A stretch of 33,460 bases of DNA. Origin: an uncultured Pirellulaceae bacterium. GTDB taxonomy: Bacteria > Planctomycetota > Planctomycetia > Pirellulales > Pirellulaceae. The stretch's first letter is position 1. Every line of letters starts with the position of its first letter. Where the stretch lies: the NCBI GenBank assembly GCA_937941455.1, contig CALDHM010000031.1, forward strand, positions 1-33,460. Reading direction: 5' to 3'. Shown here piece by piece: positions 26,496-32,286 of this stretch. The translations under genes were made by a program, and so were the position numbers. Below the pieces are notes generated by a model. That model had not been told where the DNA came from. It was given only the letters and a program-made list of their open reading frames with translations, and did not search any database.

Positions 26496-27656
26496 TTATC
26501 GGGTGAGCAGAGTGGGCATGATTTTCGCGACCTCGCGAAAGACGCGACGGATGTCAGCCGAGCTGTTGGCATGAAAATGCAGACCTTTGCCGATTCTGGC
26601 TACATCCCTCATAATTTCTTGGTTGGCTTCATCAGCGAAGGTGACAGTGAAAATCATGATGCCTTGATCCGCCAACGCATATGCGACCGCGCGAGGATCG
26701 GGACCGACGTTGAAAATGCCGTCGGTCATTACAACCACGACTTTGGCTGCCCAAGGTCGGGTTTTCGTACTGTTTGCAAGTCGATTCAAGGCATAGAGCA
26801 TCCCTTCTCCGATATTGGTGGCCCCCGAGTTGAATCGCTTCGTATATGGCTGTAACTTTTGAAACACCTCACTGTAATTCTCGGTTAAATCGTGATCATC
26901 TTGGGCAGTGTCGGCGTAGGTTACGAGGGCGACTTGTTCGCGATGGGGCGAAAACAACAATTCTTGGAGGAAAATCTGCACGGCATCAACGGTATCCAGC
27001 CACCGGGATTCAGGCGGCGCTGGATCGCCAAAAAACCACCCCGGACTCGCGTTGCGCGGAATCGGTGGATAGTCGGCTATTTCATCGGCCGCGTAGGCCA
27101 TTGAGCCCGATCGATCGATCACCAAAACAATATCCAATTCCAGTTGTGTCGCGACGGCACTGCGGGTCATATTCACCGTCAATGGGCCTTGCAGCATCGG
27201 AAACACGAGACGTACCGGTCCCGAGGGCGTTGCCGCGCTCTTCTCGACAGTCAACCGCAGCGAGTTTCCTGAGCCGCCCGTTGGAGAAAACAAATATCGT
27301 TGATTCTGATGACTCCGCAACGAAATCCCGACCTCGAAATCGGACATTCGCAGTTGCAAAGGAGAGCCGGAAACAAGATTTCGATCAGCAATGTTTTGAG
27401 CCTCGGCGACAGCTGCGTTTAAATTGCCAGTTTGCATATAAACTCGAGTAGCTGCCCGGACAGCTGCGTCCGTTGCCACCTGCATTTCTGTTTGAACAAG
27501 CTGCAGATAGGCCCAGTTGATCGCAAAGCCGGCGAGAATCAAGATCACTGGCATGAAGAGGACAACCAGAACCAGAACGGCGCCGCGACGATTTTGGGCC
27601 GTTTGGCCGAGTCGGCAATGGGGATTTAAAGCGCGATGATGGTAGGTAAAACTCAT
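26496..27656 (-). CDS. TadG-like protein with a von Willebrand A domain
   Basis: About 386 residues. The N-terminus has the Tad-type 'RRGAVLVLVVLFMPVILILAGFAINWAYL' leader and helix (Flp/TadE/TadG class), followed by QTEMQVATDAAVRAATR, the conserved region after the helix. From about residue 175 a vWA domain follows: the MIDAS DxSxS is in VLVIDRSGSM (D184, S186 and S188 in the longer numbering), the Thr of the second loop in SGATNIGEGM, and the Asp of the third in VVVMTDGIFN. Such proteins sit in the inner membrane with the metal-binding domain outside and are thought to help Tad pilus biogenesis or adhesion. The frame can begin at a TTG (27665), but the ATG at 27656 is preferred. It lies 34 bases after the first tadE. 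Confidence 0.87.
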   Translation of the reverse strand: MSFTYHHRALNPHCRLGQTAQNRRGAVLVLVVLFMPVILILAGFAINWAYLQLVQTEMQVATDAAVRAATRVYMQTGNLNAAVAEAQNIADRNLVSGSPLQLRMSDFEVGISLRSHQNQRYLFSPTGGSGNSLRLTVEKSAATPSGPVRLVFPMLQGPLTVNMTRSAVATQLELDIVLVIDRSGSMAYAADEIADYPPIPRNASPGWFFGDPAPPESRWLDTVDAVQIFLQELLFSPHREQVALVTYADTAQDDHDLTENYSEVFQKLQPYTKRFNSGATNIGEGMLYALNRLANSTKTRPWAAKVVVVMTDGIFNVGPDPRAVAYALADQGIMIFTVTFADEANQEIMRDVARIGKGLHFHANSSADIRRVFREVAKIMPTLLTR

Positions 27657-27690
27657 GGTTGCCAATCAAAACATTAAGTGCAATGGTTAG

Positions 27691-28116
27691 TTAAAAATCT
27701 TTGGAAAATGTCGCTTGGGCTTGCAAAGTGCTTCCCGAAAAAAAACCCATACCGAAAAAACAATTGTCGCGGGCTGGGGCGCGAACGGTAACTGTCACTT
27801 TCGTTCCCGCCGGCGAATCGGGAAAGTTGCTGGGAGTCACGTCATGCGAGACACCACGCAAGTTCCGCAACTGGGCGATTTTCATAATTTGTGCGTTGAC
27901 GTTTTCCGGAGTCGAACCTGAAACTACCGCCACCCGCGCGCCCTCGAAAGCACAGACCAATAAGGACTGTCTCGTGAAAATTGCATCACAGGCCTCGACG
28001 ACTCCGAACGTGATGATGACGAAAATGGGCAGACACACCGCCGCCTCAACGGCAGCAGCACCACGACGTCGCTTTAACCAGGTCCTGGGCAGAGGGTGAC
28101 AAGATCTAAGCTTCAT
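27691..28116 (-). CDS. TadE-like pilus assembly protein
   Basis: 141 residues. After a short basic leader, KRRRGAAAVEAAVCLPIFVIITFGVVEACDAIF gives the TadE signature (Gly before the hydrophobic helix, conserved Glu in AAVEAA, and a second Glu at the helix end). Then come SLLVCAFEGARVAVVSGST and a beta-rich C-terminus (PAGTKVTVTVRAPARDNCFFGM). It should be inserted in the inner membrane as part of a Tad/Flp pilus assembly set with the tadG-like and second tadE-like genes downstream; no pilin, ATPase or TadB/C gene is in the window. The ATG at 28116 is chosen because it directly precedes the leader, although no ribosome-binding site is visible; the longer frame to 28353 adds 79 residues without similarity. 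Confidence 0.85.
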   Translation of the reverse strand: MKLRSCHPLPRTWLKRRRGAAAVEAAVCLPIFVIITFGVVEACDAIFTRQSLLVCAFEGARVAVVSGSTPENVNAQIMKIAQLRNLRGVSHDVTPSNFPDSPAGTKVTVTVRAPARDNCFFGMGFFSGSTLQAQATFSKDF

Positions 28117-29037
28117 GGGGATCGGTAACGAGAAATGTTCCAGATTTCGGATCGGGCAAGCGGAAGGAAGACGGAGTCCTGTGTCGAAAGGGTAGTTCGA
28201 AGCGCCGCCGAAATTCGATGAAAAAGTAACGAACGGTTTCATTTCGAAAGGAGAGCCGCTGGAATTTCCCATCTCTCCGCTAAAATCGATCCGCTGTTTA
28301 CAATCCGCCCAGCAACCGGGTTGTTGCCAGCAACGAAAATTAGGGGCCACCATTCACCTTTTCAAAAAAATCTCGCTCCGGACTGCTTGCACGAGGAATC
28401 CGGAATTTTACGAACCGGCTCCCGAATGGCGCGGGCTGCTTGTCCATCGCAAACGCCATGGTCAAAAAAAATTGTTCGGCTACGGGCCAAACCGTTTGCC
28501 AAAGTTTTGATGCTCGCCTGGGTATGAAAACACGAAGATACGACCTGGCAGCCAACTCAGATGAAACTTAGTGAAGCTGCCATGTTACACGCTCCCATCG
28601 ACGATTTTGGATTCGCCCGACTTTCAGCACGGATCGGGTTGACTGTGCCGGTCTAACGTCGCTCGAAAATCGACACCCGATGTTCCTACCGGCCGAACGC
28701 GCCGTTCGAATTTGGCAGCGCGCAGTTGGCGTCATGTTCGCCAACGCGTCGGAATACCACCTCGCGTCGCGCCATGAGCCCTGGTGCTTGCCGGCCCGTT
28801 AGGACGGACTGTCGCACTTAAAAACCGCTGCGATGTCGGTTTGTCGCCAGCCCACAGGACATGATCCCAATTGTCAATGAGCTGCCGATTTGATAATCTA
28901 TTTACCGGGAGAGCTACGTTGGCGATCCACCATGTTTTTTATGAACGCCCGATCCTGGATGGCCCCTCGATTGCAAGGGCGCCTAGCCGCTGAGTCAAAT
29001 AACGACAGTTCGGCTTGGAAGAGGCAGCGGAGGAAAT
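28117..29037. other. Long non-coding region between the tad genes and rpsB
   Basis: 921 bases between divergent units without a convincing gene. Two inverted repeats stand close together: CGAACG-CGC-CGTTCG (28694-28708) and GTTGGCG-7 bases-CGCCAAC (28725-28745). They lie upstream of the rpsB promoter, so they are not in the rpsB leader from that promoter; they could belong to an upstream transcript or be protein-binding sites. I recognise no known RNA family here. Confidence 0.55.
28871..28899 (+). promoter_or_regulatory. Sigma-70-type promoter of the rpsB operon
   Basis: TTGTCA (28871-28876) and TAATCT (28894-28899) are separated by exactly 17 bases, each one or two mismatches from consensus. 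Transcription would start near 28906, giving a leader of about 130 bases before rpsB, long enough for autoregulation by S2, though I see no known S2-binding structure. Confidence 0.6.
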
Positions 29038-29787
29038 ATGTCGACAATCGTTCAAGAGCTTATCGATGCCGGGGTCCATTTCGGCCACCGCGCTAGCCGC
29101 TGGAACCCGAAAATGCGTCCCTATATCTACGGACGCAAAAATCAAATTCACATTATCGATGTCCGCGAAACCGTGCGGGGCTTGCTGCGGGCCAAGAAAT
29201 TCGTTTCCCAAGTAGCCAGCGAGGGAAGCTTAGTTCTGTTCGTGGGAACGAAGCGGCAGGCCGGTCCGATTGTCCAACGCGAGGCTGAACGCTGCGGCAT
29301 GCCGTTCGTCAGCGAACGCTGGCTGGGTGGCGCCCTCACCAACTTTCGCACCATCCGCAGCCGCATGGGACGCTTCGAAGAGTTGGAGCGGATCCGCTCG
29401 ACCGACGAAATCAACACTTATTCGAAGAAAATGCAATCTTCGCTCGCCCGCGAATACCGAAAAATGTATCGGAACCTGAACGGTATTCGCACAATGAACC
29501 GCATTCCACAATGCCTCGTGGTCATCGACCCGATGAAGGAAAAAAATGCGGTTCGCGAGGCTCGCGCGATGCGAATCCCGACGGTCGCCCTCATCGACAC
29601 CAACTGTGATCCAGACATGGTCGACCTACCAATCCCCGGAAACGACGACGGTATCCGCTCTATTGAGTTGATCCTTTCGCACCTGGCGGATGCCGTTTTG
29701 GCAGGGACAAAAACAATCGTTGCCAAAAACGAGGGCGCCGATTCGCCGGCTGCTAAACCAGCCGTGCCGGACAAGGACGCCGAGTGA
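29038..29787 (+). CDS. rpsB: 30S ribosomal protein S2
   Basis: Component of the small ribosomal subunit, bound at the junction of head and body, needed for S1 binding in many bacteria. The 249-residue product has standard signatures: [20 protein letters not shown] at the N-terminus, [39 protein letters not shown] (the S2 signature), [12 protein letters not shown] and [22 protein letters not shown] 20-residue Ala/Lys/Asp tail follows. The start is fixed by GGAGGA directly upstream. It is first in the rpsB-tsf-pyrH-frr cluster, an order conserved in many bacteria, with 200 bases to tsf. Confidence 0.98.
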
Positions 29788-29987: not shown

Positions 29988-30821
29988 ATGCCAGAAGTAA
30001 CCGCCGAAGCTGTGAAGAAATTTCGTGAAAAAACCGGTCTGCCGTTGATGGATTGCAAGGCAGCGCTGGCCGAAGCCAGCGGCGACGAAGAAAAGGCGAT
30101 CGAGATCCTGCGCAAGAAAGGCCAAGCCATTTCTGCCAAACGTGGTGACCGAGAAACTGCTTTTGGTCGCTTCGGTCTCTGGTGCGGCAGCGACAAGTCC
30201 GCTGGAGCTATCGTGGAATTCAAATGCGAATCGGCTCCTGTCGCGGCCAACGAGGAATTTATTCAGCTGGCCAACGATCTTGCTCGCGCCTTGGCTGAAA
30301 ACCGTCAGGTGCAAACCGTCGAGCAATTACTGGCTCTCCCCTCGCCCAGCAAACCCGGCAAATCGCTAGGCGATGTCAAAGACGATCTGTTCAACCGAAT
30401 TCGGGAGGTCTTCAATATCGGTCGCTTCACTCGTTTCGAAGGGAGCACGGGGGGCTACAGCCACAACTCGGGCACGGTCGCCGGCGTCTTGGTGAGCGTC
30501 GAAGGGGGTACGGACGACTTGGCCAAGGATGTCTGCATGCAAATCGTGGCGATGCGTCCCGCTGCCCTTTCACGCGATGAAATTGACCCGGCGCTGGTCA
30601 GCAAGGAACGAGAGATTCTCAGCGAGGCAGCACGCAAGGAAGGCAAGCCGGAGAACATCATTGAGAAAATGGTCGAGGGCCGCCTTCGCAACTTCTTCGC
30701 AGAGCGAGTCCTTCTAGACCAGCCGTACGTGAAAGACGACAAGAAAACGGTCGGCCAATTCGCCAAAGAAAACGGCATGACCATCAAGAAGTACGTCCAC
30801 TGGGTTCTCGGTGAAAAATAG
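29988..30821 (+). CDS. tsf: Translation elongation factor Ts
   Basis: Nucleotide-exchange factor for EF-Tu. The 277-residue product has the N-terminal UBA-like domain (VKKFREKTGLPLMDCKAALAEASGD), the core with GGYSHNSGTVAGVLVSVEGG and KDVCMQIVAMRPAAL, and the C-terminal EGRLRNFFAERVLLDQPYVKD. Odd point: the TDFV motif, whose Asp and Phe (D80, F81 in E. coli) intrude into EF-Tu to release GDP, reads S82-A-P-V (FKCESAPVAANEEF), so both residues are replaced. I believe other planctomycete EF-Ts sequences share this. The frame is otherwise intact and full length. GAGGAG at ideal spacing precedes the ATG. Second gene of the cluster, 69 bases before pyrH. Confidence 0.97.
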   Translation: MPEVTAEAVKKFREKTGLPLMDCKAALAEASGDEEKAIEILRKKGQAISAKRGDRETAFGRFGLWCGSDKSAGAIVEFKCESAPVAANEEFIQLANDLARALAENRQVQTVEQLLALPSPSKPGKSLGDVKDDLFNRIREVFNIGRFTRFEGSTGGYSHNSGTVAGVLVSVEGGTDDLAKDVCMQIVAMRPAALSRDEIDPALVSKEREILSEAARKEGKPENIIEKMVEGRLRNFFAERVLLDQPYVKDDKKTVGQFAKENGMTIKKYVHWVLGEK

Positions 30822-30890: not shown

Positions 30891-31652
30891 ATGGACCACA
30901 ATAACCAAGCCAAATTCAGGCGGATTCTCCTCAAACTCTCCGGGGAAAGTTTTACACACCCCGGAGAGCGCGGGATCAGTATGGACCAGGTTCTGCGAGC
31001 CGCTCGCCAAATCGTGCGTGCCCACAACATGGGCTGCGAGGTCGGCGTGGTCATCGGCGGCGGTAACATCCTACGAGGCAGTCAGTTCATTTCGACCGAC
31101 AACAATTCGGTCATCAACCCCGCTTCGGCCCATTACATGGGTATGTTGGCGACGGTGATCAACGGCCTGGCGCTGTCGGACGCCATCGAGTCCCTCGGGG
31201 TTACCGTGCGGCTCATGAGTGCGATCCGAATGGACGGCATCTGCGAGCCGTACATTCGACGCCGTGCCAAACGGCATCTGGAAAAAGGCCGCGTAATCAT
31301 CATGGCGGCTGGCACCGGACGTCCGTATGTCACGACGGACACGGCGGCCGCTTCCTACGCCCTGGAAATCGAGGCCGAGGTGCTGATGAAGGCCACCAAG
31401 GTTGACGGCGTGTACAGTGACGATCCCAACAAAAACCCTCACGCGGTTCTGTACTCAGAACTCGACTACACCACCGTGCTTGAACAAAATTTGCGGTTCA
31501 TGGACTCGACCGCGATTTCCCATTGCATGGAACACAAACTGCCGATCATGGTTTTCAATTACCAAAAAGAAGGGAATGTCGAGCGCGCAGTCGGTGGCGA
31601 AAAGATAGGAACATGGATCGGCAGTCGGCCCGCTGTCGTTGCTCGACCGTAA
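30891..31652 (+). CDS. pyrH: Uridylate kinase (UMP kinase)
   Basis: Phosphorylates UMP to UDP in pyrimidine nucleotide synthesis; the bacterial enzyme is a hexamer of the amino-acid-kinase fold, regulated by GTP and UTP. The 253-residue product shows [12 protein letters not shown] (phosphate-binding Lys), [68 protein letters not shown] and [20 protein letters not shown], all in the family order. The start [18 protein letters not shown] fits, although no Shine-Dalgarno is seen, so it may depend on upstream translation. It lies between tsf and frr, the usual position. Confidence 0.97.
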
Positions 31653-31725
31653 TTCATAAAATAACGATGGGCTGCCGGATACATTCCCTCGCGATGGCCC
31701 CTCACGAAAACCGATGGAGGACCCC

Positions 31726-32286
31726 ATGACTGTTGATGATCTGATCCTCGACACCGAAGATCGTATGGAAAAGGCGATCGAAATCCTCAAGAAGAATCTC
31801 TCCGGTATCCGCACAGGCCGCGCGAATCCGGGTCTGGTCGATTCCCTACGTGTCGATGTTTACGGATCGCCAACCCCGCTGAAACAAATCGCCTCGGTAG
31901 GCGTTCCTGAACCTGCACAAATCTTGATCCGTCCATACGATACCAGCACCATCAAGGACATCGAGAAGGCAATCGTGGCGAGCGATCTCGGCTTCAATCC
32001 GCAGAGCGACGGCCGAGTCATCCGCATCAATATCCCGGCACTCTCCACGGATGTCCGCAAAAAAATGGTGGCACGCATCAAAGAATTGGCTGAAGAAGCC
32101 CGCGTGTCCATCCGCAACATTCGCCGAGACGGCAACAAAGCGGTGGAGACGGCCGAGAAAAACAAGGAAATCAGCGAGGACGACCGCGACTCTCTCAAAG
32201 AGCAAATTCAGGAATTGACGAAAAAGTTCGAAGACAAAGTCAACGAAATGGCCAAATCCCGCGAAGCTGAGGTGATGCAAGACTGA
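31726..32286 (+). CDS. frr: Ribosome recycling factor
   Basis: Splits post-termination ribosomes together with EF-G. 186 residues, the family's usual 185. Signatures: MEKAIEILKKNLSGIRTGRANPGLVD near the N-terminus, VDVYGSPTPLKQIASVGVPE, LIRPYDTSTIKDIEKAI, DGRVIRINIPALSTDVRKKMV, RVSIRNIRRDGN and a C-terminal helix ending EAEVMQD. The ATG at 31726 has GGAGG five bases upstream; the ATG four codons earlier (31714) overlaps that ribosome-binding site and is less likely. Last gene of the cluster; a stem-loop follows at 32285. Confidence 0.97.
   Translation: MTVDDLILDTEDRMEKAIEILKKNLSGIRTGRANPGLVDSLRVDVYGSPTPLKQIASVGVPEPAQILIRPYDTSTIKDIEKAIVASDLGFNPQSDGRVIRINIPALSTDVRKKMVARIKELAEEARVSIRNIRRDGNKAVETAEKNKEISEDDRDSLKEQIQELTKKFEDKVNEMAKSREAEVMQD

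Follow-up and report, generated by a model that had tools for sequence, protein, structure and literature searches.

The window analysed here, i.e. the whole stretch of 33,460 nt from an uncultured Pirellulaceae bacterium, contains the gene order rpsB-tsf-pyrH-frr on the plus strand, in which tsf (29988..30821) encodes elongation factor Ts (EF-Ts) as a protein of 277 aa in the long form, i.e. with two core subdomains. The neighbouring genes are rpsB for ribosomal protein S2 (29038..29787, TIGR01011), pyrH for UMP kinase (30891..31652, TIGR02075) and frr for ribosome recycling factor (31714..32286, TIGR00496), all on the same strand. The tsf product, recognised from its open reading frame, family scores and fold, exceeds the curated cut-off of TIGR00116 (209.2 versus 104.05 bits) and that of PF00889 (187.1 versus 27 bits), and its predicted structure, with a mean pLDDT of 95.1, has the EF-Ts fold (Z 24.8, rmsd 3.1 and 262 residues aligned against 1efu_B; Z 26.1 against 7vmx_A). 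Because of these scores and this fold we regard it as a member of the EF-Ts family, the TDFV motif being a published hallmark and not a curated definition. A first-pass annotation of the window had described the protein as otherwise intact, full length and in its usual operon, which cut-offs, fold and gene order bear out. Elsewhere in the window, on the minus strand (26496-28353), two Flp-pilus-type genes stand next to each other, one for a von Willebrand A protein that carries a Tad domain, the other for a TadE-like protein.

The action of EF-Ts on EF-Tu is the classic model of nucleotide exchange, with the Asp-Phe wedge as its best-known step, and the second EF-Ts signature of PROSITE is based on the TDFV motif. 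Where C-[EQ]-T-D-F-V-A is expected, the window protein reads CESAPVA (residues 80-86, 30225..30245, plus strand), and a HMMER alignment places these letters without gaps against the EF-Ts of solved structure from E. coli (CQTDFVA) and M. tuberculosis (CETDFVA). Ala83-Pro84 (30234..30239, plus strand) align with E. coli Asp80-Phe81, and E. coli numbering is used below for alignment positions. The protein thus lacks the TDF motif, as had been claimed in the first pass, and both findings that would have spoken against this claim were looked for: the protein is free of TDF and DF over its whole length, and no second canonical tsf was found in the window's genome (96.19% complete), which gives one PF00889 match. 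That another copy lies in the missing part of this genome is unlikely. A sequencing, assembly or frame error has next to no probability and is ruled out by the same letters in dozens of separate genomes, such as CESAPVA or VESAPVA in eight named Pirellulales contigs among the best 80 matches of a public-genome scan, as well as in further planctomycete records.

The replacement reaches beyond the motif. According to the text available to us of PMC3747624, the residues of EF-Ts subdomain N that touch domain I of EF-Tu are Asp80, Phe81 and Gly126, together with residues around Ile125. At the third of these contacts the window protein has Arg139 (30402..30404, plus strand), aligned with Gly126. 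The E. coli-type EF-Ts (TIGR00116/PF00889) and that of the window are therefore alike in full-length fold, place in the operon, N-terminal docking residues and family scores, but differ in this patch, i.e. D80, F81 and G126 in the former are Ala, Pro and Arg in the latter.

Family searches recovered tsf in 142/149 genomes of a phylum sample and 142/148 of a class sample, i.e. in 276 distinct genomes, since eight tsf-bearing genomes were common to both. From these, 199 EF-Ts were read as a non-random set (the best-scoring 30 per search plus picks covering the families, with the window's order read completely). Position 81 is occupied by Phe in 104 of them, by Pro in 91 and by Ser in four. All 35 genomes with a match from the window's family and order are included, and 32 of them are without Phe81 (28 Pro, four Ser, three Phe). 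The remainder of the class showed 55 Pro and 24 Phe, with families f86 and f88 retaining CETDFVA or CNTDFVA, while the remainder of the phylum showed 77 Phe and eight Pro, the latter in families f33 (CEQ[ED]PT), f59 (CETEPV) and f67 (CETEPVA). The new letters are conserved over 14 family codes. All 95 genes without Phe81 are of the long form, with a residue present at the 126 column. Short, single-subdomain EF-Ts were also read in the phylum and occur within the class too, in families f86 and f88; these Thermus-type proteins share phylum and family with the window's long form but, unlike it, keep Asp-Phe in all 51 cases.

In the scan of public genomes of named relatives, the best 80 matches were used, comprising 21 planctomycete-side and 59 other loci. 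The former, which belong to the order Pirellulales where ranked so far and are otherwise planctomycete or unranked, are without Phe81 in 21/21 cases (19 AP, two DP). Asp-Phe and Gly126 are present in 59/59 of the remaining loci among these best 80 (49 Pseudomonadota, eight Bacillota, one Actinomycetota and one unranked), so that the three letters tend to be retained or lost as a set.

The accessible parts of PMC3747624 and PMC5770160 present TDFV as the conserved Mg2+-displacing motif of EF-Ts. The first-pass annotation had called this region the most conserved of the family; in planctomycetes, Phe81 is absent from 95 of the 199 genes read. The nearest known parallel is the TDFL of Pseudomonas EF-Ts, likewise a natural change within the motif and called unique by its authors, as far as the text of PMC3747624 available to us goes; there only Val is changed to Leu and Asp and Phe stay, whereas the window protein is without both. 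Our search of the open-access literature, with subscription journals mostly outside its range, found no report of planctomycete EF-Ts lacking TDF.

Phylogenetic analysis places the class members without Phe81 in one deep clade, with a support of 100/99 in a careful tree from which the motif columns were excluded and of 98 (SH-aLRT) for the same grouping in the first quick tree. Within this clade (n=87), position 81 is Pro in 83 and Ser in four members, and the Gly126 column holds Arg in 86/87, the remaining one being Leu (L366, motif CESDPVA); in a 57-row alignment of the clade, Arg139 is found in 57/57 and Pro84 in 55/57 rows. Our sequence comparison hence indicates that the D-F-G patch has turned mostly into A-P-R and that the new letters are held in the clade. 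Position 81 requires a minimum of four changes on both trees, and a single grouping of all rows without Phe81 was rejected (p-AU 0.0139, in a test chosen after the first tree had been seen). The trees therefore indicate that Phe81 was lost on more than one occasion in the phylum, i.e. in the main clade and in three other families. Some genes have Pro at 81 with Asp80 still there, namely CESDPVA (L250, L252, L366) and CEQDPT (L096), and therefore the loss of Phe81 can precede that of Asp80. Far from being the oddity of one protein, the change is, judged by alignment and trees, an old, inherited, clade-wide trait that has been repeated in part elsewhere; the absence of the motif stands, and a second replaced contact residue (Gly126 to Arg) and more than one origin in the phylum are to be added.

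The link between Arg126 and the loss of Phe81 is not a strict one. Among the other genes without Phe81, the column is Gly in six, all from f33 and f59, which have lost Phe yet kept Gly in 6/6 genomes, whereas the two f67 genes have Arg. Where Phe81 is present and this column is occupied, the residues are 45 Gly, five Arg and three Lys, the five Arg (of 53 long TDF forms) being found in f3, f9, f15 and f20. Raw counts of Arg126 are 88/95 without Phe81 versus 5/53 in long TDF forms, nearly all from one clade, and on the tree this coupling comes to one pair on starred branches and four in all (p = 1), i.e. too few independent events. Family f67 (CETEPVA, Arg126) adjoins f15 (CETDFVA, Arg126) with a support of 99/89, and on this branch Arg126 may have come first, before the loss of Phe81.

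Most of the other residues listed as binding EF-Tu are kept. The counterparts of R12 and K23 in E. coli, which are Arg13 and Lys24 in the window protein, are found in 57/57 rows of the clade alignment, and those of A174, M20 and M170 in 56/57, 50/57 and 49/57, respectively; for E. coli His147, the alignment of the equivalent is uncertain by one residue. In M. tuberculosis, only R13A, N82A and H149A among the reported mutants break the EF-Tu/EF-Ts complex, and breakage is not reported for D77A, the mutant at the Asp80 equivalent, in the text available of PMC9529903. The window protein keeps the Arg corresponding to R13 and, as Asn88, the residue corresponding to N82, which is variable in the clade (Asn in 20/57). 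Taken by themselves, the loss of just those residues that are tied to Mg2+ displacement and the retention of the N-terminal domain contacts would suit an EF-Ts whose main task is to bind or chaperone EF-Tu, with GDP departing from EF-Tu unaided. We consider this very improbable, as the sequences do not call for it, operon, fold and single copy being the same, and as a TDF-type tsf has been taken up in place by three relatives.

These relatives (G255, G267 and G283; tsf loci L146, L147 and L148) belong to the window's family and encode a TDF-type EF-Ts of 330-334 aa that shares 31-33% identity with the window's, compared with 84-85% between their EF-Tu and that of the window's genome. Their tsf lies downstream of rpsB, the sole rpsB of each genome and 69-74% identical to the window's, and the pyrH that follows is 59-62% identical to the window's, compared with 65-68% in the other family members read. 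Placing the swapped EF-Ts with the order's own EF-Ts was rejected (p-AU 0.0083). The simplest reading of these sequences is a transfer that replaced this one gene in place and left EF-Tu unchanged. The best matches at hand for the incoming gene are 34-37% identical, and the swapped EF-Ts joined E. coli in the first tree (84) and received no placement in the careful one; the gene may be Bacteroidota-like. Since the three genomes hold a TDF-type EF-Ts beside a native EF-Tu, the EF-Tu of this lineage seems to work with either kind.

The same pairing could also mean that the motif is of little weight in any EF-Ts and that Ala-Pro is tolerated and fixed by descent, without any new mechanism, which would agree with alanine mutants of D80 and F81 in E. 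coli that reportedly lose only part of their activity. Such tolerance is, in our opinion, unlikely, given that the new letters are conserved across the 14 family codes instead of drifting, and that Phe81 is kept by all 59 loci from outside among the best 80 and by the 104 planctomycete genes already mentioned.

Compensation on the side of EF-Tu was sought in 80 chosen genomes, which gave 77 strong matches, of which 75 were read (G201 and G244 were omitted); the EF-Tu of family f33, fragments at contig ends, is outside the counts. Five planctomycete genomes carry a second EF-Tu-like gene (L229, L231, L232, L233 and L234), with 63-68% identity to the EF-Tu of the window's genome. Phe81 inserts at an EF-Tu site formed by H19, H84, M112, Q114, H118 and L121, as given in the accessible part of PMC5770160. 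All six residues are identical in 72/72 genomes with both genes read, 27 with Phe81 and 45 without, i.e. no compensating pocket change was found around the F81 site in this set. The compensating or co-varying EF-Tu changes proposed in the first pass therefore find no support at the contact, which is the same with or without F81, and in three relatives a TDF-type EF-Ts is paired with an EF-Tu of the native type. When the three swapped genomes are compared with six native family members, EF-Tu columns 153 and 206 (E. coli numbering) show a fixed difference, to which we give no weight because Ala153 is also found once among the genomes without Phe81.

The EF-Tu of the window's genome (contig C69, 26073-27266, minus strand) does have an unusual switch I, with RDETKTVTI for EKARGITI and Thr61 kept; in the same protein, Ile at position 20 (for Val) and Val at position 60 (for Ile) occur together. 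An altered switch I of this kind (RDxTKTVTI) might loosen GDP or Mg2+ and make the Phe wedge dispensable, and besides the window's genome it is present in 45/47 genomes without Phe81. Still, it is not sufficient, being also present in 21/27 genomes with Phe81 from 10 families, and not necessary, as both exceptions without Phe81 are f67 genomes with a normal RGITI (2/2), which makes such compensation distinctly improbable. Found in 66/74 of the planctomycetes sampled, the switch I variant is, as far as these sequences tell, wider than the EF-Ts trait and uncoupled from it.

The tsf product is thus probably an ordinary exchange factor that still works, but with its contact patch rebuilt and the Asp-Phe wedge lost as an old trait of the clade. 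Nucleotide exchange may, as the first pass suggested, work differently in this lineage. EF-Ts would still dock through subdomain C as well as the N-terminal domain (Arg13, Lys24), and GDP release would still be sped up, chiefly through the retained contacts. Part of the push on EF-Tu, at helix B/C and on the Mg2+ side, may now come from Pro84 and Arg139, and no phenylalanine would be inserted beside His84 of EF-Tu. It is tempting to speculate further that the conserved Arg (E. coli 126) and a rigid Pro81 themselves bring about GDP release through helix B/C and the Mg2+ side, i.e. by a different local mechanism and as a second solution on a near-invariant EF-Tu surface, which we regard as a real but minor possibility.

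Regardless of the mode of exchange, a motif called strictly conserved in the available text of PMC3747624 is a two-state trait in planctomycetes, and the textbook route to nucleotide exchange may have alternatives. With a wedge-less clade, sister families in which the wedge is retained, three swap-backs and an EF-Tu surface that has stayed the same, the planctomycetes offer a natural experiment on what the wedge contributes.
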